From a virus: 29,827 nucleotides of DNA. Below the pieces are notes generated by a model, which was not told where the DNA came from, made no database searches, and saw only the letters and a list, made by a program, of their open reading frames with translations. A program made the translations under genes and the position numbers. Below are positions 4,028-29,827 of this stretch, in pieces (position 1 is the first letter of the stretch; every line of letters begins with the position of its first letter). The DNA lies in the IMG/VR virus record IMGVR_UViG_3300030012_000311, positions 1 through 29,827 of that record; one strand, 5' to 3'.

Positions 4028-4236
4028 AGTTCCTCCTTGAACTTTTTCATTTTTGTACACCATTCTTCATACTCAGAACGTTTAGCACGTTCCCATCCTA
4101 TTTGCTTACTGGTGTACATACTATAAGCAACAGAAATCTTTACATACTTCCATTGTATAAATGGCAAGTCGTCAGGATTATTGTATGTATATGGATGTAT
4201 TGGATTACGTTTTACATATACATGTGTGGGGGGCAT
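4024..4236 (-). CDS. Hypothetical protein, 70 aa, first gene of the replication operon
   Basis: Unrecognised small basic protein beginning MPPTHVYVKRNPIHPYTYNN, rich in tyrosine, lysine and tryptophan. The ATG at 4236 has a good AAGGAG site eight bases upstream. It ends in an ATGA overlap with the next gene. As the promoter-proximal gene of the polA-csrA-primase operon it should be made early. No catalytic motif is visible; a small DNA- or protein-binding role would fit its charge, but this is only a guess. Confidence 0.7.
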   Translation of the reverse strand: MPPTHVYVKRNPIHPYTYNNPDDLPFIQWKYVKISVAYSMYTSKQIGWERAKRSEYEEWCTKMKKFKEEL

Positions 4237-4257
4237 TTAATTACTCCTTAATTAAAC

Positions 4258-4286
4258 TTGACAAAATACAATAGTGTCTTTATGAC
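4258..4286 (+). promoter_or_regulatory. Candidate sigma70-type promoter for the lone plus-strand gene
   Basis: TTGACA (4258-4263), a perfect -35 hexamer, is followed after 17 bases by TATGAC (4281-4286), matching four of six -10 positions. It lies about 48 bases before the start codon of the gene at 4334 and directly before an inverted repeat. The same intergenic space must also hold a promoter for the minus-strand replication operon, which I could not place with confidence. Confidence 0.55.
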
Positions 4287-4293
4287 TATAGAT

Positions 4294-4313
4294 ATTACCT
4301 AATAATGGGTAAT
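4294..4313. promoter_or_regulatory. Inverted repeat, possible operator
   Basis: ATTACC (4294-4299) and GGTAAT (4308-4313) form a perfect inverted repeat with an 8-base AT-rich spacer. Its position, where transcription from the plus promoter would start and between two divergent genes, suits a repressor site. No repressor gene is identified in the window. Confidence 0.4.
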
Positions 4314-4333
4314 AACACAAATGGAGATGCATT

Positions 4334-4741
4334 ATGGCAACTTATAAATCAGATATGGTAAATGGCAATCAATCATTCAAACCTTTCCCAAGTGGAGCGG
4401 TTGGTGTTAGATATGCTAAATTTACAGCTACAACTGCTATTGCACTAAATGATGTAATCGAAATGGTAGATGTTTTTGCAGGTGAAACTGTACATGACGT
4501 CAAAATTAAAACTGGTGACCTAGATACAGGCACAGCTTTAGTTCTTGATGTTGGTTACGGTGGTGCAACAGACAGTATTATTGACGGTTCAACAATTGGT
4601 CAAGCAGGTGGTAGTGATCACGCAGATGCTAACATGGCTCCTATAACATTCGCTTCAGATGACACAATTGATGTGAAAGCACAAGTTGGTCCATCAGGTG
4701 GTGGTTTAGGCGACATTGAAGTCTGGGTATACGTATCCTAA
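4334..4741 (+). CDS. Putative virion decoration-type protein, lone plus-strand gene
   Basis: A 135-residue, glycine/threonine/aspartate-rich, beta-type protein beginning MATYKSDMVNGNQ. The order KFTATTAIALNDVIEMV, then VHDVKIKTGDLDTGTALVLDVG, resembles small phage structural proteins with a repeated LA(V/L)NDVIEM...LDTG...LDVGD pattern, which I recall from marine and other phages, usually annotated as hypothetical or head-associated. GGAG lies seven bases upstream of the ATG. It is the only plus-strand gene among minus-strand early genes and has its own promoter and a hairpin behind it, so it is expressed apart from the late operon. No signal peptide or membrane segment. Structural role is inferred from family memory and composition, not proven. 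Confidence 0.7.
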   Translation: MATYKSDMVNGNQSFKPFPSGAVGVRYAKFTATTAIALNDVIEMVDVFAGETVHDVKIKTGDLDTGTALVLDVGYGGATDSIIDGSTIGQAGGSDHADANMAPITFASDDTIDVKAQVGPSGGGLGDIEVWVYVS

Positions 4742-5184: not shown

Positions 5185-5517
5185 CTATTTACGCCATTGC
5201 GGCTGTTTGGTTTGCCATTCAGCACGAACAGTTGGGATAGATACTTTGAAAGGTTTTGTAAACAAAGTCTTAGCATCTTTACTTATCTCAAGCTTCTCGT
5301 GCACCATAGTCTTCTTCATGATAAACAAGACAATCGATGCCGTCAAACCACCAACCATAGCTGCCGTCATACCGCTGAAGGTGCCATAGAAACACACCAT
5401 CAGCGTAACAGTAATAATGACGTCAACAAAGATATCGTGGCCAATAGCTTTTTTACCACCCGCTTTAAGCGCTAGCAAAAGCAGACCTAGAGCGGACAAA
5501 ATTCCTACCAGTAACAT
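5185..5517 (-). CDS. Membrane protein, 110 aa, holin-like candidate
   Basis: Three hydrophobic stretches are visible: residues about 2-17 (LLVGILSALGLLLLAL), 30-44 (FVDVIITVTLMVCFY) and 51-66 (TAAMVGGLTASIVLFI), then a basic soluble tail ending WQTKQPQWRK. GGAGG precedes the ATG at 5517 by eight bases. Its beginning lies inside the end of the preceding small membrane gene in another frame (53-base overlap). Small multi-pass proteins with a charged C-terminus include phage holins and superinfection-exclusion proteins; I cannot choose between these. No lysin gene is visible nearby, which weakens a holin call. Confidence 0.65.
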   Translation of the reverse strand: MLLVGILSALGLLLLALKAGGKKAIGHDIFVDVIITVTLMVCFYGTFSGMTAAMVGGLTASIVLFIMKKTMVHEKLEISKDAKTLFTKPFKVSIPTVRAEWQTKQPQWRK

Positions 5518-5617
5518 CTCTGTTCCTCCACATTAGATAAGCCATATACCCAAATTGTATAAGCTCAATTAGAATCCATAGTGCAGTCGTTAGTGCACTT
5601 ACCACGTTTGCAGTCAT
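5465..5617 (-). CDS. Small single-pass membrane protein, 50 aa
   Basis: Starts MTANVVSALTTALWILIELI; one hydrophobic helix of about 20 residues (8-27), then a basic tail (RNRDVTGRNFVRSR). GGAGG lies five bases before the ATG at 5617, and the start overlaps the previous stop as ATGA, which supports translation. The last 53 bases overlap the next gene in a different frame, longer than usual, so either its end or the next gene's start may differ from what is given. Confidence 0.55.
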   Translation of the reverse strand: MTANVVSALTTALWILIELIQFGYMAYLMWRNRDVTGRNFVRSRSAFASA

Positions 5618-5793
5618 AATAACCTCCATATTAGATAGAATATACACCCGAGGCCGACCCCGACACCGAGCAGAAGCAACGAGTACTGAATACTAGTTGC
5701 AAGACCGAATAGTAGAAACAACACTGCTGTGCCAGTCAACACAGACACACCAAACTCTTTGATGTGTTGCTTACATTTGTACAACTTCTCCAT
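5614..5793 (-). CDS. Small two-pass membrane protein, 59 aa
   Basis: Starts MEKLYKCKQHIKEFG with a short basic cytoplasmic head, then two hydrophobic segments (about 17-33 and 37-57) joined by a short turn, ending WRLL. AAAGGAGGT precedes the ATG at 5793 at ideal distance. It overlaps the metallopeptidase/VWA gene upstream by 23 bases and the next gene by ATGA. A helical hairpin of this size suits a holin, antiholin or membrane-altering early protein; function unknown. Confidence 0.6.
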   Translation of the reverse strand: MEKLYKCKQHIKEFGVSVLTGTAVLFLLFGLATSIQYSLLLLGVGVGLGCIFYLIWRLL

Positions 5794-9090: not shown

Positions 9091-9849
9091 TTAAGCAGCA
9101 TCAAACATACCTTTTGTATGCTCAGTTGTCTGCCTGTTGAGTGTATTAGCCACATGGACTGAACAGTCAGCATGTTGCTTGTAATTCCACTCGGCCAGTC
9201 TTTGCTGTCGTCTGACGACTTCTGTCTGAACACGCATAGTATTCAAAGACAGATCAGCTAGACCAAACTCAGTGCCGATGGTCTGGATAACTGCAGATAA
9301 CATACGAGCCTTACGACCAAGACCAAACATCTTGTCTTCACGCTCGATCAGCCACGTTGGTAGCTCATCTTCTGCAGAAACCTTAGCGGCCTCTTCCTTG
9401 TACTCATACGCAATAGCAGAGAACTCCGCCCAGGTACGAGTAGTAAGTTGCAACAAGTTGATACCTGTAGATTGTGGGTCAACCTCTAGCAATGGCATGA
9501 AACCATCAGCGACAGTCTTGACTTGCTTCTCAAAGTACTCACGTTCTTTGTCAGCCAACTCTGTATCTTCATTGTTGAATTGCATTTCTGTATCCTTCTT
9601 GGCATTGAATACCTTCATGATACCGTCAACTCTTGATTGCTGAAACGCTGGTGCGCCATCTGCATCAAGAGCATACTTTGCAAAATAGAAATCAGGTAGC
9701 TTCCTGGGTTCTTGTTTTGCTCTCTCCTCGGAGCCTACTGGGTCACCATTAGTATCTGGTGTGTACATAGACTCATCAGTCTTTAGCTCATTGACCAACT
9801 CTGGGCCGATCTCCTGATCAGCAGGGTCAAAGTGATTTGCATTCGCCAT
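9091..9849 (-). CDS. Hypothetical early protein, 252 aa
   Basis: Unrecognised, acidic, largely helical protein beginning MANANHFDPADQEIGPEL. No membrane segments, no cysteine clusters; one cysteine near the C-terminus. The middle (ADKEREYFEKQVKTVADG) is probably coiled coil. The ATG at 9849 has AGGAGGTAATT before it, the same leader as the MoxR gene. It overlaps the upstream gene by 23 bases and is separated from the next by a stable hairpin, so it may be made in larger amounts than genes below it. It could be a single-stranded DNA-associated protein by size and acidity, but I see no defining motif. Confidence 0.7.
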   Translation of the reverse strand: MANANHFDPADQEIGPELVNELKTDESMYTPDTNGDPVGSEERAKQEPRKLPDFYFAKYALDADGAPAFQQSRVDGIMKVFNAKKDTEMQFNNEDTELADKEREYFEKQVKTVADGFMPLLEVDPQSTGINLLQLTTRTWAEFSAIAYEYKEEAAKVSAEDELPTWLIEREDKMFGLGRKARMLSAVIQTIGTEFGLADLSLNTMRVQTEVVRRQQRLAEWNYKQHADCSVHVANTLNRQTTEHTKGMFDAA

Positions 9850-9988
9850 AATTACCTCCTTTGGCATTAGTTAAACATGTAAGTATCTTTTGATACTCAC
9901 ACAGATCATCATATTCAGCTCGCGAACGAGTTTCGCTCACTTCAGCTTTTTGTAGTACCTCATGGGGTACACTCACTTCTTCTAACAT
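9827..9988 (-). CDS. Small hypothetical protein, 53 aa
   Basis: Starts MLEEVSVPHEVLQKAEVSE, soluble and mostly helical. The ATG at 9988 follows AAGGAGGTAAGT; the longer in-frame start upstream has no ribosome site. It overlaps the next gene by 23 bases and is the first gene after hairpin element A (10036-10060), 47 bases away. No function can be assigned. Confidence 0.65.
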   Translation of the reverse strand: MLEEVSVPHEVLQKAEVSETRSRAEYDDLCEYQKILTCLTNAKGGNYGECKSL

Positions 9989-10035
9989 ACTTACCTCCTT
10001 GTAAATTAGATTAGAAACACATACACACACACTAA

Positions 10036-10060
10036 CTTTTTACATTTGTAATGGAAAAAG
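10036..10060. repeat. Hairpin element A of a five-member family
   Basis: On plus: CTTTTT, A, CATT, TGT (loop), AATG, G, AAAAAG. The six-base outer arms pair perfectly, A and G form a 1x1 mismatch, and CATT/AATG pair under a 3-base loop. The plus flank before it is ACACACACTAA, so the minus strand reads hairpin then TTAGTGTGTG. It lies 47 bases before the minus-strand gene starting at 9988. Confidence 0.7.
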
Positions 10061-10076
10061 TCTGAGCGTGTATCTG

Positions 10077-10228
10077 GCAGCGGGAGGGGCGCTGCAAACA
10101 CGGTTAACCGTGTTTAGCATAGGCCAACCCTATGCGGCAACGCCCGTGAGCTGCGATACACGCGAAGCACACCTGCAGGAGCACACCTGCAACCACCAAC
10201 ACATAAAGAGCCGACGCCAACGGCGTCG
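10077..10228. other. Gene-free region packed with palindromes
   Basis: Back-to-back inverted repeats fill this stretch: GCAGCG/CGCTGC (10077-10095), a perfect 20-bp palindrome with half AAACACGGTT (10096-10115), GCATAGG/CCTATGC (10117-10135) and CGACGCC/GGCGTCG (10212-10228). A 12-base direct repeat AGCACACCTGCA occurs at 10166-10177 and 10180-10191. Hairpins follow each other with almost no spacer. No convincing gene is present on either strand. It lies between the terminator at 10256 and hairpin element A, so it is upstream of the 9988 transcription unit. Regulatory RNA, protein-binding array or replication site are all possible. Confidence 0.6.
10166..10191. repeat. 12-base tandem direct repeat
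   Basis: AGCACACCTGCA appears at 10166-10177 and again at 10180-10191, a period of 14 bases. Only two copies; it lies within the palindrome-rich region. Confidence 0.7.
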
Positions 10229-10249
10229 ACCATATTGTTTCTTGTATAT

Positions 10250-10281
10250 AAAAAAAGGGGAACCAATGCACTGATTCCCCT
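10250..10281 (-). terminator. Rho-independent terminator, leftward
   Basis: On minus, AGGGGAA pairs with TTCCCCT (10256-10262 with 10275-10281; 12-base loop) and is followed at once by a run of seven T. This is the clearest terminator of the early region. It ends the unit that includes the genes at 10906, 10640 and 10450. Confidence 0.85.
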
Positions 10282-10297
10282 AATAGCAATTTACTCC

Positions 10298-10460
10298 AGT
10301 TAGTTATATGTGAAGATTTTACTAACTAAAAGCGGAAGGACGCCAATCGACTCTACATCATCCCCTACGACTTCACCGGGTGGCTGGAGGCTGATGAGTT
10401 TTTGACGCACGCGTCTACTAACTCATCAGCCGATGGCTGGGCGCGACGGTTAGCCGTCGC
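10298..10460. other. Gene-free stretch with three further hairpins
   Basis: AGTTAGT/ACTAACT (10298-10304 with 10321-10327), an 11-bp perfect stem GCTGATGAGTT/AACTCATCAGC (10390-10400 with 10420-10430) with an inner GACG/CGTC hairpin in its loop, and GCGACGG/CCGTCGC (10443-10449 with 10454-10460), which overlaps the stop codon of the minus gene ending at 10450. The sequence is visibly richer in G and C than the coding DNA around it. A plus-strand frame is open through here from about 10330 but has no ATG start and runs antisense into a better-supported gene, so I do not call it. Confidence 0.5.
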
Positions 10461-10650
10461 CCCAGGTTTTGAGGCGTTCTACTGCCTCAGCTTCAGACAT
10501 ATAGTCTGTGTATCGAGCCCAGGGCTCTTTACCTACATAGGTTTCGCCATCTTCCCATGTATACTGGACGGAGCACCAAGCTCCTATGTAATACCCAGCT
10601 GGTGTTGACATCACCTCTGCTGGGCCGATTGCAATAACTTTATCTTCCAT
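10450..10650 (-). CDS. Hypothetical protein, 66 aa
   Basis: Starts MEDKVIAIGPAEVMSTPAGYYI; a compact, beta-containing, tryptophan- and tyrosine-rich protein with EPWARYTDYMSEAEAVERLKTW near the end, a shape seen in small phage accessory proteins. AAAGGAG lies seven bases before the ATG at 10650. It overlaps the upstream gene by 11 bases, and a GC hairpin sits on its stop codon. Function unknown. Confidence 0.7.
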   Translation of the reverse strand: MEDKVIAIGPAEVMSTPAGYYIGAWCSVQYTWEDGETYVGKEPWARYTDYMSEAEAVERLKTWGDG

Positions 10651-10801
10651 TTTTAAACTCCTTTATGCTAGTTAAAGTTTCTTCTTTCCATGCTAGGAAG
10701 TCATACTTATCCCATGTAAGCATTTCTTCTACACATTTACCGTAGCTGATTCCCATGCCGAGCAAGAGGCCAGCTATAAATATAAATAATTCAATCATCA
10801 T
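10640..10801 (-). CDS. Small membrane-anchored protein, 53 aa
   Basis: Translation of the minus strand from 10801 gives MMIELFIFIAGLLLGMGISY, one N-terminal hydrophobic helix, followed by a soluble tail with KCVEEMLTWDKYDFLAWKEE and a basic end. AGGAG lies six bases before the first ATG; a second ATG follows at once (10798). The end overlaps the next start by 11 bases, typical of this operon. Likely a type I or III membrane peptide; function unknown. Confidence 0.65.
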   Translation of the reverse strand: MMIELFIFIAGLLLGMGISYGKCVEEMLTWDKYDFLAWKEETLTSIKEFKNGR

Positions 10802-10809
10802 TGGTACTC

Positions 10810-10913
10810 CTAGTTAAAAGTTGGGGGGCTTTCTCATTCCCCCCATGGATGTTCCGTAATCAACGCCCTGCGCTTTGCTACGTCCGCAGGATAACGTGCC
10901 AACTTTTAGCTAG
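10810..10913. ncRNA. Intergenic folded element with long closing stem
   Basis: CTAGTTAAAAGTTGG (10810-10824) pairs with CCAACTTTTAGCTAG (10899-10913): 15 bp with one pair that is G-U on plus-strand RNA and A-C on minus. Inside are CCTGCG/CGCAGG (10867-10872 with 10885-10890) and a six-G/six-C hairpin (10823-10828 with 10839-10844) that competes with the top of the closing stem. The whole looks like a three-way junction and begins on the stop codon of the 10906 gene. It may be a riboswitch-like or processing element, or an RNA made from the plus strand. Confidence 0.45.
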
Positions 10914-11112
10914 CTGGCGTAGCTGGAGTATCTTCCTGAACGAAGAAGATTACCTTCTCACCAGCTTTGATATCAAAGTCAGGATAGAAGTTCAAACCCT
11001 TGGCATGCGATACGCCAGAACCGACAGTAGCCAGTCTTGCTTGCTCTTTGCCAGTTTGCGGGTTCACAAAGTTACCTCTTTCAACTCTAGCTTTATATTT
11101 AACGTTACTCAT
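10906..11112 (-). CDS. Hypothetical protein, 68 aa
   Basis: Starts MSNVKYKARVERGNFVNPQT. Probably an all-beta small barrel (LATVGSGVS, DIKAGEKVIFFVQED) with a flexible Ala/Pro-rich tail. AGGAGGTAATT precedes the ATG at 11112. It is the first clear gene after hairpin element B (11179-11203, 66 bases away) and is followed by the folded element at 10810-10913. The architecture could suit an OB-like or Sm-like nucleic-acid binder, but no motif proves it. Confidence 0.7.
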   Translation of the reverse strand: MSNVKYKARVERGNFVNPQTGKEQARLATVGSGVSHAKGLNFYPDFDIKAGEKVIFFVQEDTPATPAS

Positions 11113-11131
11113 AATTACCTCCTAGGTATAA

Positions 11132-11426
11132 TTAACAAGAGACAAACCATTCATCTCTTTCATTTAAGTTCATGCTAGCCATGTACATTTGCAATGGACA
11201 TGGCCAACATAGGACAGTAGCTTCTCGGACATCCAACAGGAGCAGTCCGCCTCTGCCAATATACTTGCCGTATTCCTCTGGCTTAGCGACAAGAACGCTT
11301 TTTCCTCCCAACCAGGGGAAGTCAACCTCAGCAGAACGACGCGATATTCTTTAGCCTGCCAGTTTATCTACTCCGCTAGTAGACGCCGTACCACTTACGA
11401 TATGCTCGAGGATTTTGTCAACACAT
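11132..11426 (-). pseudogene. Possible broken gene with good start site but disrupted frame
   Basis: An ATG at 11426-11424 has GAGGAG six bases before it, yet its frame stops after two codons (ATG TGT TGA). The +1 frame reads on as VDKILEHIVSGTASTSG to an in-frame TAA (11351-11353), and the same frame is then open for 72 codons to 11132 with protein-like sequence (KPEEYGKYIGRGGLLLLDV). One inserted base and one stop would explain this, or a programmed shift at UGU-UGA-C. Against it: the last part overlaps hairpin element B. A separate 33-codon frame (11395-11496, MLNRLWVRLILLEL) overlaps the first part and is equally uncertain. Confidence 0.3.
11179..11203. repeat. Hairpin element B
   Basis: On plus: CCATGT, A, CATT, TGC (loop), AATG, G, ACATGG. 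Same geometry as element A with different but fully paired outer arms and the same A/G mismatch. Flank on minus is CTAGCATG, the least conserved of the five. It lies 66 bases before the minus start at 11112. Confidence 0.7.
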
Positions 11427-11511
11427 ACCGCACTCCTCTATCAATAGTAGGGATCAACTCAAGGAGAATCAGTCTCACCCATAACCTATTTAACATTTCA
11501 AGACACACTAG

Positions 11512-11536
11512 CCATAGCCATTTGCAATGGCTATGG
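11512..11536. repeat. Hairpin element C
   Basis: On plus: CCATAG, C, CATT, TGC (loop), AATG, G, CTATGG. Here the mismatch position is a C-G pair, so the stem is 11 bp, and an outer G-C pair extends it. Flank on minus is CTAGTGTGTC. It precedes the poorly understood stretch 11132-11500. Confidence 0.7.
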
Positions 11537-11543
11537 CCAGCGA

Positions 11544-11572
11544 GGCGACGGCCCAGGGCCGAGCCGAGCGCC
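11544..11572 (-). terminator. GC-rich hairpin after the SLOG gene
   Basis: GGCG (11544-11547) pairs with CGCC (11569-11572) around an inner CGGCC/GGCCG stem (11549-11553 with 11557-11561). It starts three bases after the stop of the 11575 gene on minus. No T run follows, so it may slow or stabilise rather than terminate. Confidence 0.4.
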
Positions 11573-11574
11573 GA

Positions 11575-11949
11575 TTAATATTCAAATACATGAACTTCAA
11601 GCCCTGCATTACGCGCAGTATCAATCATGTGCTTGGTGCCTCGGGATTTACCATCCCAGAAGGCCACCAACACATCGGCGTAATCTGCCATAAGACGATT
11701 ACGACGAGGGCCGGCTGATTTGCCATAAGCTGCCCAATCAGCTGGAAACTGAGTGATTTGCAAATCAAACTCTCTGGCGAAGCGCTCACCAAGCGCGTCT
11801 GCCCCACGGCAGGCGCCAGATACAATCTCTAGGCCTGTTTGTTCAGCGCCATTAAAGAACGCAAGATCAGGCTCAAGAAGATTCATGTAGTCAAGCAGTA
11901 GCCCATAATCATTAAAATCACGACCACCAGCAATAATCATTTTCAACAT
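11575..11949 (-). CDS. SLOG-superfamily (YspA/DUF2493-type) nucleotide-binding protein
   Basis: A 124-residue Rossmann-like protein with the DUF2493 signature: MIIAGGRDFNDY at the start, IVSGACRGADALGERFA (43-59), PADWAAYGKSAGPRRN and RLMADYADVLVAFWDG. SLOG proteins bind nucleotides or nucleotide-derived signals, and some relatives cleave cytokinin-type ribotides; members are frequent in phages, where their role is not settled. GGAG lies eight bases before the ATG at 11949. It appears to be a single-gene unit: hairpin element D lies 42 bases before the start and a GC hairpin follows the stop. Family call is firm; substrate unknown. Confidence 0.9.
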   Translation of the reverse strand: MLKMIIAGGRDFNDYGLLLDYMNLLEPDLAFFNGAEQTGLEIVSGACRGADALGERFAREFDLQITQFPADWAAYGKSAGPRRNRLMADYADVLVAFWDGKSRGTKHMIDTARNAGLEVHVFEY

Positions 11950-11991
11950 AATATATACTCCATATAATTAATTACACCTCCACACACACTA

Positions 11992-12016
11992 GCTCGACGA
12001 CCTGTGGTCGGCGTGC
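11992..12016. repeat. Hairpin element D
   Basis: On plus: GCTCGA, C, GACC, TGT (loop), GGTC, G, GCGTGC. Arms pair except for a T/T and an A/G mismatch; the mismatch sits one position further out than in the others. Flank on minus is TAGTGTGTGTGG. It lies 42 bases before the SLOG gene start at 11949. Confidence 0.65.
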
Positions 12017-12020
12017 TAAA

Positions 12021-12302
12021 TGTTCCACATGTTCCACATGGTTCCACGACAAGTGGAACACGATTAGCGTTACAACTGTGCGGGGTCAGAGGTCTGGTTC
12101 CACTGGTTCCACGTAGAATAGAACTTCGGACAACGAACATTCAACAACGAACCAGGGTCCGAGTTGATGTACTGCCAAGTTCCTCGTGGAACAACGGAAC
12201 CAACACCTCAGTAGCACGCACGCAACCCGCACGGCTACAACGCTAAACGCGGTTCCATGGACACGGGTGCCAACGGCACACTTCCGTGGAACCGATGGAA
12301 CC
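12021..12302. repeat. Cluster of GTTCCAC / GTGGAAC repeats in a gene-free region
   Basis: GTTCCAC occurs at 12022, 12031, 12041, 12097 and 12106; its complement GTGGAAC occurs at 12053, 12186 and 12286. Variants include GTTCCTC near 12178, GGAACC near 12197, GTTCCAT at 12252 and TGGAACC at 12296. The copies at 12041 and 12053 form an inverted pair with a 5-base gap. The octamer TGTTCCAC equals half of parS variants bound by ParB (TGTTCCAC-GTGGAACA), but no full parS and no parA/parB is visible. The region 12017-12360 has no convincing gene. An iteron array for a replication or partition protein is the best guess. Confidence 0.65.
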
Positions 12303-12352
12303 ACAAATGTGCACGTCGCAACCCGACGATGCACATTGATGATAGTAGTTTG

Positions 12353-12381
12353 AATAAAAAAGAAGGGGGCTGGACGCCCCC
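12353..12381 (-). terminator. Rho-independent terminator, leftward
   Basis: On minus, GGGGGC-GTCCA-GCCCCC (12365-12381) is followed by TTCTTTTTT. A strong intrinsic terminator for the gene at 12443-12652. It separates that unit from the GTTCCAC repeat region. Confidence 0.85.
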
Positions 12382-12442
12382 GGTAGTTAGGAAGAGAAGA
12401 GAAACTCTATGACAGAGTCTGGTAGGTGGAGTGTGTACTCGC

Positions 12443-12652
12443 TCATGACTTCTGAGCCAGTGGAAGTTTGCCTTGCTTAGGCTTACGAGTGGAAGCGTAC
12501 CCCTGAGCAATGGCGGAACCATACTTAACAGTAGTAGCTTTGAGTGAACCAACGCTGTCTTTGATAGACGATGTTGATATAGTATCGACGCCATTGTGAA
12601 TGGACGCTGTAACTGATCCGATGCCAGTTAATAGTTTTGTCATTATATTCAT
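12443..12652 (-). CDS. Hypothetical early protein, 69 aa
   Basis: Starts MNIMTKLLTGIGSVTASIHN; serine/threonine-rich, probably amphipathic helical, with a basic tail (STRKPKQGKLPLAQKS). GGAGG lies five bases before the ATG at 12652. It is the gene nearest the divergent control region, has hairpin element E 45 bases upstream and its own terminator downstream, so it should be among the first transcribed. Unknown function; small early phage proteins often act on host machinery, but nothing here shows that. Confidence 0.65.
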   Translation of the reverse strand: MNIMTKLLTGIGSVTASIHNGVDTISTSSIKDSVGSLKATTVKYGSAIAQGYASTRKPKQGKLPLAQKS

Positions 12653-12697
12653 ATTTACCTCCAATGAATTTAGTTAATAACACTTGAATACACACTA

Positions 12698-12723
12698 GCT
12701 CGTACATCTCTGATGGACGTAGC
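12698..12723. repeat. Hairpin element E
   Basis: On plus: GCTCGT, A, CATC, TCT (loop), GATG, G, ACG-T-AGC. Arms pair with one bulged T; the inner pair C-G replaces T-A of the others and remains paired. The A/G mismatch is kept. Flank on minus is TAGTGTGTATTC. It lies 45 bases before the start at 12652. Confidence 0.7.
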
Positions 12724-12835
12724 TTTTTTCAATACAAGGTTCCAATGAAGAGAACGACGACCGGCTTTTGACTTTGGAAAAAGGAGGGAGGAGTGGTGTC
12801 TGGTGATAGTAGTAACCAATGCGTGAGCGATATAG

Positions 12836-12894
12836 AGTATATTTTTCAAAAAAAATTTTCCCACAAAAAATTTACAAGTTATCCACACATGTGG
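12836..12894. other. Candidate replication origin: DnaA box beside AT-rich tract
   Basis: TTATCCACA at 12879-12887 is a perfect match to the strong DnaA box. Directly to its left lies an AT-rich tract (about 12841-12878) with A and T runs that would melt easily. CCACA/TGTGG (12883-12894) also forms a small inverted repeat. The site is in the divergent intergenic region between early and late genes, a usual place for a phage origin. TATACT on minus (12836-12841) could be a -10 for the leftward unit. Only one exact box is seen. Confidence 0.5.
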
Positions 12895-12900
12895 TATTTT
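12871..12900 (+). promoter_or_regulatory. Candidate late promoter, possibly giving a leaderless terS mRNA
   Basis: TTTACA (12871-12876), then 18 bases, then TATTTT (12895-12900). A start seven bases past the -10 would fall on the ATG at 12907. No Shine-Dalgarno sequence precedes that ATG, which fits a leaderless message. The promoter overlaps the DnaA box. Confidence 0.4.
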
Positions 12901-18426: not shown

Positions 18427-19449
18427 ATGGCACAAGAAAACGTAAACGAAAACCAAGAGGAAGCTCTTGAAATTATGCCAGGAGCAGATGCCCTGCCAGA
18501 AGAAGAACAAGGTCAAGACTTTAAAGTTGACATGAACTTCGAAGAAACTGAAGAACAGGAGGAAACTGAAGTTGAACAAGACGAGCCAGAGACTGAAGAA
18601 GAATCAGAAGAAGAATCTGAAGAGGAAACTGAAGAGGAAGAATCTGAAGATGCAGACGAAGAAACAGAAGATTCAGGAGAAGAAGAAGTATTGGGAGACG
18701 ATGGGGAAGATACACAACAACCTGCTGAACCAGTACAGGAAAGAGCTGAAGAACCAAAAGAACCTATGATACCTAAGTCTAGGTTTGATGAAGTCCTAGC
18801 AAAACAAAAAGCTTTAGCTAAAAAAGTAGAAGAACTTTCTAACCCTGTAGAAAAAATAGAAAAAGCACCAGAATTTGATTTCGAAGGAAAAGAATTAGAG
18901 TACCAAGACATGATCTTAAACGGTCAGCCCAATGAAGCTGCAAAGATAAGAGCAGAGATACGGGCCGCTGAGAAACAAACAATGATGTTTGAGGTACAAA
19001 ACCAAATGGGACAAACTGTGCAACAAAGCACAGAGACTATGCGCCTGCAACAAAAAGCAGCAGAAATAGCAGAGCAACACGATGTGTTAAACGAAAGCAG
19101 TCCTAAGTATGATGAAGTTAAAACTCAAGAAGTTTTAGACCTAAGAGATGCTTACATCATACAAGGATATGCTGGTGCAGATGCATTACAGAAAGCAGTA
19201 GATTTGTTACTACCGACTGTTATAGAGCCAGCTCCAATAAATGAGCCAGATCCTGTAGAACAACAAGTAGCGGAGAAAAAGAAAGTAGCTAATACTAAAA
19301 AGAAAATAAAAGCTGCAGAAAAACAACCTCCTGCTATGAAAGGTAAAAACAAAACAGATAAAAAAATTGATGTATCTACACTATCCGTAGAAGAATTTGA
19401 CGCGCTACCTGCAGAAACTCTGAGGAGAATGCGTGGCGATTTCGGATAA
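18427..19449 (+). CDS. Head scaffolding protein candidate, very acidic
   Basis: 340 residues. Residues about 36-94 are nearly all Glu, Asp, Ser and Thr, followed by a coiled-coil region (EVLAKQKALAKKVEELS), a helical middle and a basic C-terminal end (KKVANTKKKIKAAEKQ, then MRRMRGDF-like close). An acidic, helical protein with a basic end directly before the major capsid gene is the usual profile of a scaffold. AGGAGGTAATTAAT precedes the ATG. No protease domain is visible. Confidence 0.8.
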   Translation: MAQENVNENQEEALEIMPGADALPEEEQGQDFKVDMNFEETEEQEETEVEQDEPETEEESEEESEEETEEEESEDADEETEDSGEEEVLGDDGEDTQQPAEPVQERAEEPKEPMIPKSRFDEVLAKQKALAKKVEELSNPVEKIEKAPEFDFEGKELEYQDMILNGQPNEAAKIRAEIRAAEKQTMMFEVQNQMGQTVQQSTETMRLQQKAAEIAEQHDVLNESSPKYDEVKTQEVLDLRDAYIIQGYAGADALQKAVDLLLPTVIEPAPINEPDPVEQQVAEKKKVANTKKKIKAAEKQPPAMKGKNKTDKKIDVSTLSVEEFDALPAETLRRMRGDFG

Positions 19450-19474
19450 AGTGTGGTATAAATTAAATAAGTTC

Positions 19475-19592
19475 GCGGGCTAGAGCGATATCTAGCGCGG
19501 GTTCGGCCCCGTAAAAAGTCGTTTCTCGCCCACCTGGGCGTAAAATTGGTCGGGTTCGTACCCGTAAAACTAACGAAAGCGTTGCCCCAACG
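19475..19592 (+). promoter_or_regulatory. Structured capsid-gene leader: row of hairpins, three followed by TAAAA
   Basis: The 213-base gap before the capsid gene holds GCTAGA/TCTAGC (19479-19496), CGGG-TTCGGC-CCCG (19498-19511), CGCCC-ACCT-GGGCG (19527-19540), CGGG-TTCGTA-CCCG (19551-19564) and CGTTG-CCC-CAACG (19580-19592). The middle three are each followed directly by TAAAA, and two share stem and a TTCGNN loop. An alternative AACG/CGTT pairing (from about 19573) competes with the last. Probably a folded mRNA leader controlling capsid translation or mRNA stability; a promoter could also lie near its start. Confidence 0.6.
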
Positions 19593-19662
19593 ACAAAGGG
19601 TACACGGATAAAAGTCGCTCCAATAAGTCGACTGGTTAATTTTAATTAATGGAGACATTATC

Positions 19663-20808
19663 ATGGCAAATACAAACTTTGCTGCGTTGACCAGTGAACA
19701 GCTTACTATCTGGTCTCGTGATTTTTGGCGTGTCGCTAGAAATATGTCCTTCGTTAACCAATTCGCTGGTGCGGGTTCTAACGCAATGGTTCAGAGAATA
19801 TCTGAACTTACCCAATCAGAAAAAGGGGCTAGAGCTGTATTAACACTTTTAGCTGACATGACTGGTGACGGTATCGTTGGAGACAACACTCTTGAAGGAA
19901 ACGAAGAGGCATTAAGAGCTTTCGACATTACAGTAACAATTGACCAACTAAGATTTGCGAACAGATTATCTGGAAGACTTGCAGATCAAAAGTCAGTTGT
20001 AAACTTTAGGGAACATTCAAGAGATGCACTTGCATACGCAATGGCTGACAGAATGGACCAATTAGCATTCCTTACCTTAAGTGGTATTGGGTATAACCTT
20101 AAGAACAATGGTGCGTTAAGACCATCAATGAACTCAGGGCAAAACCTAAACGACTTAGAGTTTGCGAGTGAAGTTAGTGCACCTACTTCTAATAGACATA
20201 GAAGAGTAGATGCTACTAATGGTATCGTAGCTGGCGATGTTACTGCTTTAGAAGCGGCCGACAAACTAAGTTACAAAAATATCGTTGATCTAAAAGCTTA
20301 TGCTAAAGACAACTACATCAGAGGCCTAAGAGGCGCAGGTAACGATGAGACATTCCATCTCTTCGTAACTCCGCAAGTTATGGCTGACCTTAAACTTGAC
20401 TCAGATTTCCTTGCTAACGTAAGGCAAGCTGGCGTTAGAGGACCAGGCTCAAGCTTGTTCTCTGGCTCATCAAGTCTAATGGTTGATGGCATCATGGTTC
20501 ACGAGTTCAGACACGTGTTCAATACAAGCAATGCCTTAACTGGTACATCATCAAATGCTGGTGCTGCTGGTTATAAAGGTGGTGCAAATGCTGATGTCAA
20601 CTATTCAAGATGTATCTTTGCAGGTGCGCAAGCATTAGCAATGGCTGATATTGGTGTTCCAGATATAGTTGAAGACACATTCGACTATGGAAACCAAAAC
20701 GGTATTTCAATTGGGAAAATATTCGGACTCAAGAAGCCTAAGTACCATTCTGATCACACAGGTCAGGTTGAGGACTTCGGTGTTATTGCGTTAGATGTTG
20801 CATTCTAA
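19663..20808 (+). CDS. Major capsid protein, N4gp56/DUF4043-type
   Basis: 381 residues. AFDITVTIDQLRFANRLSGR, then LADQKSVVNFREHSRDAL, AYAMADRMDQLAFLTLSG, and later ETFHLFVTPQVMADLKLD and SGSSSLMVDGIMVHEF follow the N4gp56/DUF4043 family, which has the HK97 fold. It forms the capsid shell. GGAG lies nine bases before the ATG, after a long structured leader, and a strong terminator follows the stop, which fits high, separate expression. It follows the scaffold and precedes connector genes, as expected. Confidence 0.9.
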   Translation: MANTNFAALTSEQLTIWSRDFWRVARNMSFVNQFAGAGSNAMVQRISELTQSEKGARAVLTLLADMTGDGIVGDNTLEGNEEALRAFDITVTIDQLRFANRLSGRLADQKSVVNFREHSRDALAYAMADRMDQLAFLTLSGIGYNLKNNGALRPSMNSGQNLNDLEFASEVSAPTSNRHRRVDATNGIVAGDVTALEAADKLSYKNIVDLKAYAKDNYIRGLRGAGNDETFHLFVTPQVMADLKLDSDFLANVRQAGVRGPGSSLFSGSSSLMVDGIMVHEFRHVFNTSNALTGTSSNAGAAGYKGGANADVNYSRCIFAGAQALAMADIGVPDIVEDTFDYGNQNGISIGKIFGLKKPKYHSDHTGQVEDFGVIALDVAF

Positions 20809-20822
20809 TTGTGATATATTTT

Positions 20823-20852
20823 ATGGGTGGCTACTAATAGCCACCCATTTTT
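20823..20852 (+). terminator. Rho-independent terminator after the capsid gene
   Basis: ATGGGTGGCT (20823-20832) pairs with AGCCACCCAT (20839-20848), a perfect 10-bp stem with a 6-base loop, followed by TTTT. It should reduce transcription into downstream virion genes relative to the capsid gene. Confidence 0.85.
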
Positions 20853-20864
20853 AAGGAGAAAAAT

Positions 20865-21194
20865 ATGTGGATAGTATCAGACGAAGATAAAACGGTAGCT
20901 TCTACCTGGGGAGCAACTATACATTTAAAAGCAGGTGAACCAAGAGAAGTTGGACATGACTTAGGGCTATTATGTTTACAAGCAGGTTGTACAGAGATGA
21001 AAGATGCTCCAGTAGAAAAACCTGTTGTAGAAGAAGTTGTAGAAGAAGTCGTAGAAGAGGTAGCAGAAGAGGCTATCGACTTAGACTCTATGACTAAAAT
21101 ACAGCTAGAAGAATATGGTCGTACCTTAGGTATCGAACTAGATAGACGTAAGAAAAAGTCAGACTTGATCGCAGAACTAAAAGCAGCGGAGTAA
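20865..21194 (+). CDS. Acidic-repeat protein with HeH/SAP-like C-terminus, 109 aa
   Basis: Starts MWIVSDEDKTVASTWGATIH. A small beta N-terminal part is followed by an acidic repeat (VVEEVVEEVVEEV, about residues 49-61) and a compact end, DSMTKIQLEEYGRTLGIELD then RRKKKSDLIAELKAAE, that fits the two-helix HeH/LEM or SAP-like fold, common in small phage head proteins. AAGGAG lies just before the ATG. It follows the capsid terminator, so it is probably a minor head or completion protein. Confidence 0.7.
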   Translation: MWIVSDEDKTVASTWGATIHLKAGEPREVGHDLGLLCLQAGCTEMKDAPVEKPVVEEVVEEVVEEVAEEAIDLDSMTKIQLEEYGRTLGIELDRRKKKSDLIAELKAAE

Positions 21195-21200
21195 TAAATT

Positions 21201-21938
21201 ATGGCAGGGACACTAACAGGAGCAAATTTATTAGCCAGAGTAAAAGACATTCTACAAGACACCACCAGTGTCAGATGGCCAGAAGCGGAATTACTTAGGT
21301 ATATAAATGACTCACAAAGAGAAATCGTTAACTACAGACCAGAATCTTCAGCTACTACTTCTAACGTACAGCTAGTTACAGGTACAAAACAATCTTTACC
21401 ATCAGGTGGATTGCGTTTAATAAAAGTGACTAGAAATATGTCTGATGCATCTGGCGGTGCGACAGGTAAAAGAGCTATTAGAATAGTAAACGCTGATATC
21501 TTAAACACACAAGAACCAGATTGGAATGATCCAACTGTTAGTGGAGATGCAGCGCACGGGTCAATTATTAAACATTATATATTTGATGAAGATGACCCAA
21601 GAAACTTTTATGTTTACCCTGGGGTAGCAAGTGGTCAAAATGCATTTGTAGAGATTGTTTTTTCTAATTCACCAACTGACTTAGGAAGTACGTCAGCTAC
21701 TATTTCTGTAGATGACATATATGCAAATGCTATTGTAGATTATGTATTGTTTAGAGCTTACCAAAAAGATTCTGAGTACGCAGGAAATGGGCAAAGAGCT
21801 CAACTTCACTATCAATTATTTTTAAATTGTATAGGACAAGGTATGCAAGCCCAAGAACTTATAAGTCCAAATAACGATAGAACAAGCAATATAGGTGCTA
21901 TGCCTCCAGTAATGCAGGCACCGCAACAAGGAGGATAA
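21201..21938 (+). CDS. Head-tail adaptor protein (DUF6682-like)
   Basis: 245 residues starting MAGTLTGANLLARVKDILQD, then VRWPEAELLRYINDSQREIV, a short-helix start typical of head-to-tail connectors, followed by a beta-rich region (NFYVYPGVASGQNAFVEIVF) and a helical close. I recall this pattern as DUF6682 in podoviruses. GGAG lies nine bases before the ATG. It should bind under the portal. The neighbouring 21940 gene has a similar layout and may be its partner in the tail tube. Confidence 0.75.
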   Translation: MAGTLTGANLLARVKDILQDTTSVRWPEAELLRYINDSQREIVNYRPESSATTSNVQLVTGTKQSLPSGGLRLIKVTRNMSDASGGATGKRAIRIVNADILNTQEPDWNDPTVSGDAAHGSIIKHYIFDEDDPRNFYVYPGVASGQNAFVEIVFSNSPTDLGSTSATISVDDIYANAIVDYVLFRAYQKDSEYAGNGQRAQLHYQLFLNCIGQGMQAQELISPNNDRTSNIGAMPPVMQAPQQGG

Positions 21939-21939
21939 G

Positions 21940-22617
21940 ATGGCAAGTTACTCTTCTTTAGTAAAAGAAGTTTTGCCATATGTGCCTTTTTGTCCAGATA
22001 GCTTGGTAGAACAACAACTTCGTTCTGCCACTATAGAATTTTGTGAACGTTCAAAAGCTTTTACCTTAGATATTGACCCAGTTAGCACCATACCAGGTGT
22101 TTTTGAGTATGACTTTGATATACCTTCTGGTACAGAAGTGCACCAAATTTTGCATGCTACGTATGATGGCAAAGACATGGATCCCATAAGTCCACGTAGT
22201 TTAGAGTTAAACTACCCAGATTGGAGGGATAGAACTGGCAACCCACACGTGTATCTACAGAAGACACCCACAACGTTTTGGCTAGTACCAGTGCCTAGCA
22301 CTTCGAAAGAACTAATAATGGGCGTGGCCTTAAAACCTAGTAGAACTTCTAACAATATAGATACAGTGGTATCAAACACTTATAGAGACGCTTTAATCTA
22401 TGGAACATTATATAGACTACTACGTATGCCTAAACGAGAATGGACAGACGTAGGAGCGGCACAAGAATACTTATTTCAGTTTAACGTTGAAATACAACAA
22501 GCTGAACTTAGGGCTAGAGGAGGAGACCTTGGAGTTAAAAGAACAGTTAAATATAAAGGACTCGGTATGCCAAGAAGAAGGCGTGGTAGAAAGTACGGAC
22601 AAGAAATCGACTATTGA
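21940..22617 (+). CDS. Connector or tail-tube protein, 225 aa
   Basis: Starts MASYSSLVKEVLPYVPFCPD, then LVEQQLRSATIEFCERSKAF and beta strands (FEYDFDIPSGTEVHQILHAT), a middle with HVYLQKTPTTFWLVPVP and a C-terminal helical part ending in a basic tail (PRRRRGRKYGQEIDY). This is the profile of podovirus connector or tail-tube (nozzle) proteins. AAGGAGG precedes the ATG. It lies one base after the preceding gene. The exact place in the tail cannot be fixed from sequence alone. Confidence 0.7.
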   Translation: MASYSSLVKEVLPYVPFCPDSLVEQQLRSATIEFCERSKAFTLDIDPVSTIPGVFEYDFDIPSGTEVHQILHATYDGKDMDPISPRSLELNYPDWRDRTGNPHVYLQKTPTTFWLVPVPSTSKELIMGVALKPSRTSNNIDTVVSNTYRDALIYGTLYRLLRMPKREWTDVGAAQEYLFQFNVEIQQAELRARGGDLGVKRTVKYKGLGMPRRRRGRKYGQEIDY

Positions 22618-23014
22618 GGATTTAGTCCCTACTGACATACGCACTTGTTGGGAAGAAGTTAAACCAGGCATAGAGGAAGTACTTAAGGATAGAACTTTAA
22701 GTTATAGACCAGAAGATATCTATGCTGCTTGTGTGACAGAACAAGCATTTTTATACAAAGCGAGTTTTGGGTTTGTAATACTCACAGTAGAAGTAGATGA
22801 GTTTACAAAAGAACGAACTTTGTTTGTATGGCTTGGTTATCTTTATGAAAAAGGTAACCATATGTGGGTTGAAAAACGAGACTGGTTTGACCAACTTGCT
22901 AAAAGTATTGGTTGCAGTTACATAGGCGCTCATACTAAAATTAAAGAGTTAGAGCCCTACTTTACAAAGGAAGGTTGGGAGTTAGATACAAGAATATTTA
23001 GGAGAAAAGTTTAA
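22583..23014 (+). CDS. Small virion-region protein, possibly GNAT-fold, 143 aa
   Basis: The frame is open from 22487, but most of that overlaps the previous gene. A GTG at 22583, after AAGAAGG, leaves 35 bases of overlap and is preferred; the start remains uncertain. The protein reads IRTCWEEVKPGIEEVL, FLYKASFGFVILTVEVD, ERTLFVWLGYLYEKG, LAKSIGCSYIGAHTKI and a closing IFRRKV. This strand-helix order resembles small GNAT-like phage proteins located where T7 has internal protein gp13. No acetyl-CoA loop (Q/RxxGxG/A) is evident, so enzymatic activity is doubtful. Confidence 0.6.
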   Translation: MVESTDKKSTIEDLVPTDIRTCWEEVKPGIEEVLKDRTLSYRPEDIYAACVTEQAFLYKASFGFVILTVEVDEFTKERTLFVWLGYLYEKGNHMWVEKRDWFDQLAKSIGCSYIGAHTKIKELEPYFTKEGWELDTRIFRRKV

Positions 23015-23586
23015 TGGCAGGTAAGTTAAGACAAATAGCAGGGAAACCTAAAAAAGATAGGTATAGAGCTACGTCTATAGAAAAATTCCAGACACAGTTC
23101 GCTAATGAACTACTTGATAAACTTAACCCACAAATTAGGTCTGTTATAGGTAAGATACGGGATTACGCAGATCAAAATTTTGTTGCTGAGGGAGAAGGAA
23201 TAGGTAACTTTGACGCAATGAAGATAGCAAAAACTATCCCAGGGCCTGTGGGGTTCGGTATACAAACTGGTATCGGTGTAGGTAACATATTAAGTAGGAC
23301 TTCGAATGTTAATAACTCAGCAGACCTGATGATTGGCAAGCTAGCAAACATGTCAACAAGTGGTACCAAAGGAGAGATAAAAAGCAGGGATGCTAATTTA
23401 ATGGCCCTAAAAGGACAAATGGGAGAGTTTGATACTCTTACGAAAGGCACAATGGCTAGCACCAAATTAGCTACTAATGATTTATTGAGTGAGGCATCCG
23501 CTCAACTAAAACGTGACACAGCGCCTATGGCCTTATTCAAACCAGCTTTAGAATTCACAGGATATCAAATAAGTAAGGATAGTTAA
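23014..23586 (+). CDS. Hypothetical virion-region protein, 190 aa
   Basis: Unrecognised. Starts MAGKLRQIAGKPKKDRYRAT with a basic head, then helices and a glycine-rich hydrophobic middle (PGPVGFGIQTGIGVGNIL, about residues 77-94). AGGAGAAAAG precedes the ATG, which overlaps the preceding stop by one base. It has neither signal peptide nor cysteine motifs. Located in the ejection-protein region, so an internal virion role is likely by position only. Confidence 0.65.
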   Translation: MAGKLRQIAGKPKKDRYRATSIEKFQTQFANELLDKLNPQIRSVIGKIRDYADQNFVAEGEGIGNFDAMKIAKTIPGPVGFGIQTGIGVGNILSRTSNVNNSADLMIGKLANMSTSGTKGEIKSRDANLMALKGQMGEFDTLTKGTMASTKLATNDLLSEASAQLKRDTAPMALFKPALEFTGYQISKDS

Positions 23587-23589
23587 GAT

Positions 23590-24138
23590 ATGGCATTAGA
23601 TCCCGGATACGACCCAAGCGGAAATTTAGAAGCTTTTATGCGTTCTGATTATGAGCGTTTTATGAACGAAGATGCTCCTTTTCAAAATGCCCTTTTAGAT
23701 AAAGCCATGAATGATACCTCTATTATTGATAGAGCTAGAGAAATAGCCCCTAAAGAAATAGAAAAACAAAGACAGATAGCTGCACGTAACTTAGAAAGAT
23801 ATGGTGGGGGTAATCTAAGCCCTGCACAGAGACGAGAAATGGAAAGGGCGCAACAAAGAGGTAGTAAGTTAGCTACAGCTAATGTTATAAACCTAGCAAG
23901 AAGAAACCAAAGAGAGGTTAATCAAGCACTAAGAGCACAATTGTTGGCTTCTTTTAACAGACAAAAAGCTGCCGCTACTGGCATGTTGGCACAGTCAGGG
24001 CTTGCTCAGGTGCAGAGAGAAAATGCATATAGAAATGCTAAAGCTCAATACAGACAAAATTTATTTGGGCTAGGCGGAGCTTTAATACAAGGCGTAATGT
24101 CAGGCTTTAAATCAGCAGGCGGAGGCGGAGGTACCTAA
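23590..24138 (+). CDS. Putative internal virion (ejection) protein, 182 aa, gp14-like
   Basis: Highly helical, Ala/Arg/Gln-rich. Starts MALDPGYDPSGNLEAFMRSD; a long helical core (KEIEKQRQIAARNLERYGGG, then REMERAQQRGSKLATANVIN and QREVNQALRAQLL) ends in an amphipathic and glycine-rich tail (GLGGALIQGVMSGFKSAGGG). Size, composition and place before two very large proteins match the smallest ejection protein (T7 gp14 type), which enters the host envelope. The ATG follows only a weak site. It overlaps the next gene by one base. Confidence 0.65.
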   Translation: MALDPGYDPSGNLEAFMRSDYERFMNEDAPFQNALLDKAMNDTSIIDRAREIAPKEIEKQRQIAARNLERYGGGNLSPAQRREMERAQQRGSKLATANVINLARRNQREVNQALRAQLLASFNRQKAAATGMLAQSGLAQVQRENAYRNAKAQYRQNLFGLGGALIQGVMSGFKSAGGGGGT

Positions 24139-29700: not shown

Positions 29701-29827
29701 AATTAAAAACAATTGAAGCAGAAGTAGAAAGAGAAAAAGCAAGACTACAAGAGGGGTTAACACCAGAAGAAATAGCAAAAGGTTTTTTTATAAATAAGAA
29801 AGGGCAGAAAAATGAGCCTTTTAAAAC
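26703..29827 (+). CDS. Very large virion/ejection protein, 3' end cut by window
   Basis: Open for at least 1,041 codons from the ATG at 26703 (MAITKDFIGSQSERDIRAN) to the window end. Near the start a short unit is repeated: DFIGSQSERDI, then GFVGSQSDRVI. Hydrophobic, Gly/Ala-rich stretches occur near residues 135-170 (AITSIVAALTGAGVGASLS) and near residue 240. SEGVAEGLQEELSVQQKL (about 340-357) resembles the EGLQE motif seen in large phage internal proteins. The last part before the edge is a Glu-rich coiled coil (DAERRLLEAQQELKTIEAE). No transglycosylase motif appears in the visible part. Probably ejected with DNA; no full-length comparison is possible. Confidence 0.75.
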   Translation, partial: MAITKDFIGSQSERDIRANNLKDLDGFVGSQSDRVIGAEDRVEVDDLTSGIERFRASFKTGQSTLVSSFQNFDASIASLTGNKERMNESLRRAREEQEQGAYYLLDSQPFEEFIEAPTFEGFIDSAIEATGQFAPTAITSIVAALTGAGVGASLSYLTGSSRLFAAAGSTGLTTIPASLASKKFVQSEVEDILKKKVTIDVLKKQGKKTAITMTPDEEKVINLLYPYLRGQLRNKYATRGAVAGAFAQEQPIGAGIAFGDFAEQDMTDPITAFRAQQQGVVFGAIGVGSEALIYKAIVNNVKSKAAKKLINERAVIDAPRNNALDVISRGLGAGVLTGVSEGVAEGLQEELSVQQKLQIDRDYTKTQANLDRLQALYMGTIGGMGIGTATGTSTAVIGKMRELAEIGYEKRMFDLYQKTKGKEINPILETQNDLSAQFADLQDPNIGRDYVWLDAQNNAAYAPIANRIDKIPNLEKTMIPGVGTFFTFNEELNQRFVNTMSAGALNRQRLLNFLDIYGKKPPSEGGGPRVVVSVRGRNNEILQRYEVKMGDEEQSAITAAQNYIGGPDGTNGRNIVVQTLEEFNEERTNNFPVQEQTEEMQMELPFGKEEKEANKDTALQQIKEEQQQAEAEEQLTERDEAGNIIQDEFTRFETTQEQLFAQDTQNEPQIVPDITPKGKILKRARQQGSLENPFGSTLTGKPYLPPVQFNEKGEVTTAWEKRVQEGDAIYNEIIGLMPDAFVSEFNRLVLENKINDSAGKRYIALAQDLNKTNLFDNQGLGFGTQGDGVVIYKYNMAGVSTAIGTETATPDLIKRAVEMVIPQDKEGKKNRGRQTQFKILNKETGQTTAMDPNKFTNVGRQMNNRFGDRVDGNLQSAIAGFGRLLAEMALNGYEVQFDGKPFSDENGRDAPIYTVDGKKLSLNQMAKLIGNETSKTKIPRRLDPLQIGPLQPGKKFPKRKLRDIPLTETENTEGIERDDMEGLQNVLADAERRLLEAQQELKTIEAEVEREKARLQEGLTPEEIAKGFFINKKGQKNEPFK

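Follow-up and report, generated by a model that had tools for sequence, protein, structure and literature searches.

We analysed a 29,827-base viral record from a podovirus-like phage (hereafter the window), in which five short hairpins lie among the early genes. The minus strand carries early and replication genes for DNA polymerase A, a primase-like helicase and an ATPase with its VWA-type partner. The late genes on the plus strand encode terminase, portal (~40% identical to KPP25-like phages) and the major head protein. The VWA-type partner is listed as 'HNH endonuclease' in PHROGs, and the ATPase/VWA pair is named the same as N4 gp24 and gp25. A preliminary description had proposed that the five hairpins share one plan. 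Folding and reading located all five where it had placed them, and we named them along the minus strand from A (12698-12723) to E (10036-10060). Each consisted of outer pairs, a 1x1 position, 4-5 inner pairs and a triloop, with stems of 11-12 pairs. On the minus strand, the 1x1 position was a C.T mismatch in A, B, D and E and a C-G pair in C. The (C)TAGTGTGT flank was kept in A, B, C and E (as TTAGTGTGT in E) and weaker in D (CTAGCATGA), again as described, and in most copies a seventh pair closed the outer stem just before TAGTGTGT. A covariance model run unfiltered recovered exactly these five in the window (E-values 1.9e-13 to 6.4e-4). This run gave no sixth minus-strand copy, the next match being the mirror image of copy C.

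Four copies lay 42-66 bases before a minus-strand start codon. Copy A with its flank CTAGTGTGTATTCAAGTGTTATTAA (12676..12725; triloop AGA, one bulged base, 46.4 bits) heads the first early unit, ~45 bases before a small gene (12443..12652, Shine-Dalgarno GGAGG) whose start codon at 12652 was placed from the Shine-Dalgarno. Copy B with TAGTGTGTGTGGAGGTGTAATTAA (11970..12018; hairpin 11992-12016, triloop ACA, inner stem CGACC/GGTCG) was the weakest at 22.6 bits and preceded a 124-residue gene (11575..11949) by 42 bases. Copy D with its weaker flank CTAGCATGAACTTAAATGAAA (11156..11206; hairpin 11179-11203, triloop GCA) stood 66 bases before a 68-residue gene (10906..11112). Copy E with TTAGTGTGTGTGTATGTGTTT (10013..10063; triloop ACA, A/T-rich stem) stood 47 bases before a 53-residue gene (9827..9988). 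Copy C with CTAGTGTGTCTTGAAATGTTAAA (11489..11539; hairpin 11512-11536, triloop GCA) was fully paired and was followed by ~290 bases without a clear gene. This stretch (11206-11488, minus strand) holds a conserved block, GTATGTGTTGAC..TCCTCGAGCATA, with an interrupted reading frame, and may be either a small RNA or a decaying gene. Near the Shine-Dalgarno of the gene behind D, a second conserved leader hairpin (11135-11160; TTGATACGGGTGTATCGA in relatives) recurred in the leaders of the 68-77-residue gene in L109, L121, L127 and L123, and is possibly a translational operator.

Strong minus-strand terminators upstream of B (12381-12365) and of E (10281-10256) bore out the claim that at least two of the preceding units end in this way. 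The intrinsic terminator of the A-headed unit (12356..12381; GGGGGC..GCCCCC then TTCTTTTTT) precedes copy B, and that of the D-headed unit (10249..10281; AGGGGAATCAGTGCATTGGTTCCCCT then TTTTTTT) precedes copy E. None of the window hairpins was itself a GC-rich hairpin followed by a T-run, the flank being TAGTGTGT. In contrast to the early units, the terminase genes are preceded by a sigma70-like late promoter on the plus strand (12871..12900; TTTACA, 18, TATTTT with TG).

To place the hairpins in a wider context, 80 related viral contigs were collected through a terminase scan and another 80 through an early-protein profile. Requiring at least 9 of 11 Watson-Crick pairs in intergenic early leaders, we found a hairpin in 81/284 early leaders against 2.8 expected from shuffles, thus excluding chance. 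Further downstream, 8/154 leaders carried one (2.3 expected). Copies shared one orientation and preceded Shine-Dalgarno-bearing genes in many genomes, and in one relative, the 58-kb genome G001, all four copies found along its whole length were at the head of the early region. The hairpins are well supported as head signals of early transcription units, as the preliminary description had held. They came as lineage dialects, each with its own loop and 3' flank. The exact window dialect, in which the leader flank was kept together with the hairpin, was confined to four lineages (the window with L085/L107; L083/L108; G001 with L064/L098-L100/L123; L132/L134). More distant relatives had the same plan in other letters, with T..C triloops (TCC, TAC, TTC) or tetraloops often ending in AC, the mismatch 5-7 pairs from the loop, and different flanks; in some of these dialects TTTTTAT follows the hairpin in place of TAGTGTGT. 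The family was not found in the scanned parts of cultured relatives identified by their portal (KPP25, Acidovorax AP1 and ctwe8250).

That the outer arms differ and yet remain paired had been taken as a sign of selection on structure, and comparison of 11 aligned window-dialect sites from the window and related phages with 500 shuffles substantiated this. Paired cells made up 98.3% (71.8% in shuffles), 33 cells had changed on both sides (9.6 in shuffles) and the covariation score was 0.740 (0.189 in shuffles). No shuffle (0/500) attained the observed value of any of the three, and slid structures were only 33-41% paired. It was the outer stem that covaried. Inner CATY/RATG pairs were almost fixed, the two adjoining the mismatch (C-G, A-T) never varied, the last loop base was A, and the flank had an invariant AG followed later by an invariant G. 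The outer stem is thus kept for structure only, and the inner stem, loop end and flank for their sequence. Sixteen hairpins of the dialects with TNC loops covaried independently and to an equal degree (58 two-sided cells versus 18.0, 0/500 shuffles).

The preliminary description had offered two readings, a DNA-hairpin promoter of the kind used by the N4 virion RNA polymerase (vRNAP) and an RNA element in the 5' untranslated region. N4-type vRNAP promoters are extruded in a supercoil-dependent manner, and initiation occurs ~11 bases from the loop centre. The three early promoters of N4, read in the same way as the present hairpins, had loops TTC, TCC and TCC and lay 22-59 bases before genes. 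As here, they are stem-loops with a triloop and a short conserved 3' flank, vary in their letters yet pair, and occur in several copies on one strand shortly upstream of early genes, the late genes having sigma70-like promoters. Late genes of N4 are transcribed by the host sigma70 polymerase, and the stability of its template loop has been ascribed to a sheared G:A pair (PMC4496689). In relatives, the majority of dialects share the N4 loop class, T..C on the sense strand and GNA on the template. A three-base template loop with a central purine, as in N4-type promoters, was present in part: the window had TGT, TGC, TGC, TGT and TCT (E to A), with a central G in 4/5, and relatives had GGA and GAA, but also GTA and tetraloops. 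Among sense-strand loops of the non-window dialects, T..C occurred in 23/41 and G..A in 0/41, compared to 13/211 and 21/211 in control hairpins.

A strand asymmetry was also apparent. With DNA parameters, the template-strand hairpin was the more stable in 39/54 cases (P = 1.3e-4). Folding as RNA gave no such preference for the sense over the antisense strand (more stable in 19 versus 28). Sense-strand mismatches were pyrimidine.pyrimidine in 34 cases and purine.purine in 5, where random pairing gives 23 and 16, and the template strand therefore carries mainly purine-purine mismatches. Sigma70-like promoters, scanned by a consensus that may miss those of these phages' host, were depleted in the 150 bases upstream of the hairpins (1/54, 6.8 expected), scarce between hairpin and start codon (1/54, 6.0 expected) and enriched in the late promoter region (9/11, 2.7 expected). 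The T-run of a terminator ended 4-37 bases before the hairpin in six relatives (L132, L165, L135, L174, L137 and L123), leaving little room for another promoter. In five relatives whose leader of the gene-E orthologue lacks the module (L118, L121, L129, L124 and L125), a matching stem without a T-run led straight into the Shine-Dalgarno, a comparison of few pairs only.

We favour a DNA-hairpin promoter because of the loop class in relatives, the strand-specific DNA stability, the absent sigma70-like promoters and the close upstream terminators. Specifically, we give roughly even weight for and against hairpin and 3' flank being the start signal of the early transcription unit, as a template-strand DNA hairpin resembling an N4 early promoter. 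Beyond the structure, covariation, location, strand asymmetry and lack of nearby sigma70-like promoters, which were observed directly, the mechanism would run as follows. Negative supercoiling would extrude the inverted repeat, and the template-strand hairpin would be recognised via its loop, inner stem and purine mismatch. RNA synthesis would begin a few bases downstream, in or near TAGTGTGT, and yield a short C-poor leader with a strong ribosome-binding site at its end. Host sigma70 promoters would serve the late genes. The polymerase might be a phage enzyme that escaped detection, or the host RNA polymerase together with a phage factor. DNA hairpins also act as promoters of early-expressed genes in the F plasmid (Frpo-type), where host polymerase uses them on incoming single-stranded DNA; unlike these, no -35/-10 mimic was visible here.

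Besides the consensus nature of the sigma70 scan, several observations weigh against this reading. N4 stems have 5-7 pairs, compared to 11-12 with a 1x1 mismatch here, and the window loops (ACA, GCA and AGA) are not T..C as in N4. The N4 combination of a template 5'-GNA loop and G at -8 was not found in the window (GNA occurs in other dialects), and in CATT/AATG copies T, not G, stood second from the loop in the stem. Unlike N4, loops and flanks vary by lineage, there are 4-5 copies, and neither vRNAP nor RNAPII was found. Terminator-like hairpins shared the excess of pyrimidine mismatches with a similar but weaker bias (81 versus 43), and automated tests of coupling between terminators and hairpins were not significant (P = 0.14 and 0.74). 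Likewise, the leaders downstream of the hairpins (8% C, 40% T, 32% A, leading into AGGAGG) and their GTGTTATTAA-like motif, mostly 24-50 bases ahead of start codons, would suit a translation leader, although they would also suit an initially transcribed region.

The N4-like polymerase is the part of the original proposal that was not recovered. PHROG profiles, which found the N4 enzymes in N4 itself as positive control, detected a virion RNA polymerase (phrog_2206) or T7-like polymerase (phrog_414, phrog_2051) in 0/9 relatives of 56-63 kb; they replaced a PF00940 search that was silent in its controls too. The window is a fragment cut inside a giant gene (26703-29825; 18979-24873 in G001), whose virion protein has no cysteine, measures 1787-3019 residues in relatives and has a conserved WQLKSFFYAYGK C-terminal region. 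N4 likewise has a giant virion protein without cysteine in a similar genomic position, after the head genes (gp50, the vRNAP). The vRNAPs of LUZ7 and LIT1 are cysteine-free as well (PMC3715699). However, this state is expected of any ejected protein and hence is no proof of a vRNAP. As a vRNAP candidate the 3'-open reading frame was rejected: it had no match to PDB profiles, and pattern reading revealed no catalytic motif. What was present instead, in G001, is a metallopeptidase-like AHEIGHSF motif. Comparison with N4 gp50 by hhalign gave no similarity. AlphaFold models of its two halves were of low confidence (predicted local distance difference test 54 and 52), too poor to inform, and had no Foldseek matches. 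Because stem length, loop and -8G, and polymerase all depart from N4, membership of the N4 promoter family is not claimed.

The strongest competitor, which we regard as a serious though less probable alternative, is an RNA stem-loop in the 5' untranslated or intercistronic part of the minus-strand transcript. It would protect or process the mRNA end and free the C-poor, AU-rich leader with its Shine-Dalgarno, and a sequence-specific factor would account for the conserved loop, inner stem and TAGTGTGT. Leader composition and the placement of the GTGTTATTAA-like motif fit such a role, and in G001 copy D comes directly after the preceding gene's stop codon. The T4 gene 32 leader is a precedent for a hairpin leader (PMC8948821). 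Leaders of T7 gene 10 and T4 gene 32 mRNAs likewise combine a hairpin, an AU-rich unstructured leader and a strong Shine-Dalgarno, but here no recognisable promoter precedes the hairpin, and a sequence-specific loop and flank are kept within a lineage. An RNA leader requires an upstream promoter, exactly where sigma70-like sites are depleted and terminators can end, and as RNA the sense strand does not fold more stably than its complement. The covarying stems contained few G.U pairs (3/121 cells in the window dialect, 1/176 in the TNC dialects), although site detection is biased towards Watson-Crick pairs and a neutral count of G.T versus A.C is not decisive. This count was dropped as an RNA/DNA discriminator, having no power, and terminator-like hairpins behaved alike. 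A sigma70 -10 box in the TATTAA behind the hairpin was also rejected, as the start would hit the Shine-Dalgarno in several leaders.

Two further explanations are both very unlikely. Lambda nut and HK022 put are structured elements at the heads of early phage transcripts, and similar antitermination signals in nascent RNA could let host RNA polymerase pass the terminators between units. Copies do alternate with terminators, and a boxA-like GCTCTTTA lies ahead of copy E in G001, as well as in the E region of the window. However, one site per operon should be enough, and several copies stand just after, not before, the terminator to be overcome. Compared to nut and put, there is a single short hairpin, repeated per unit, rather than two adjacent stem-loops, and no consistent boxA: boxA-like words occur near some copies only (upstream of C, D, E and orthologues), and this word is absent before the others. 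Alternatively, DNA hairpins for replication priming or recombination could lie by chance near an origin-like region. The copies are within 3 kb of a non-coding region of 260 bases that separates the first early unit from the second (12040-12300, minus strand); its GTGGAACC/GGTTCCAC repeats look like replication iterons and are kept in relatives (G001 4230-4490, G002 5380-5640). Also within this distance is the AT-rich stretch 12840-12890, which lies where early and late genes meet and is retained throughout the group. It combines a DnaA-box-like TTATCCACA with a conserved TATATCGCT element and is a possible origin and divergent promoter region. Template-strand DNA stability would also agree with such hairpins, but not their uniform orientation before Shine-Dalgarno-bearing genes in many genomes, nor a leader flank conserved along with the hairpin. 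REP, attC and IS200/IS605 hairpins seem less likely, given that a single genome holds differing stems and that the sites stand before genes.

No described family matched the hairpins, in agreement with the preliminary description: no Rfam 15 family exceeded its gathering score, and the one match from a permissive Rfam search of this region, at a terminator, was weak and at chance level. Elsewhere in the window, a lone plus-strand gene of 135 residues (4334-4741) lies within the minus-strand early region. An early 252-residue protein was without a match in the phage record collection. In the late arm of G001, a gene at 43629-45380 (plus strand; in L100) encodes 583 residues resembling a membrane-bound nucleotide cyclase, which is either out of the ordinary in a phage of this kind or an indication of host DNA.

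DNA-hairpin promoters have, to our knowledge, so far been tied to one polymerase lineage, that of the N4 vRNAP. With somewhat less than even confidence, we propose a DNA-hairpin promoter system outside the Schitoviridae, served by an RNA polymerase too divergent for detection or by the host enzyme together with a factor from the phage, its dialects diverging fast between lineages. Should the RNA leader instead be correct, the hairpins would be a new, widespread family of covarying leaders in uncultivated marine podoviruses. If the promoter reading is true, a second, abundant group of marine phages would use hairpin promoters with no N4-type enzyme, which would imply that a phage RNA polymerase has gone unrecognised or that the host enzyme is directed in a new manner, and the dialects would provide many natural variants for probing what is recognised.

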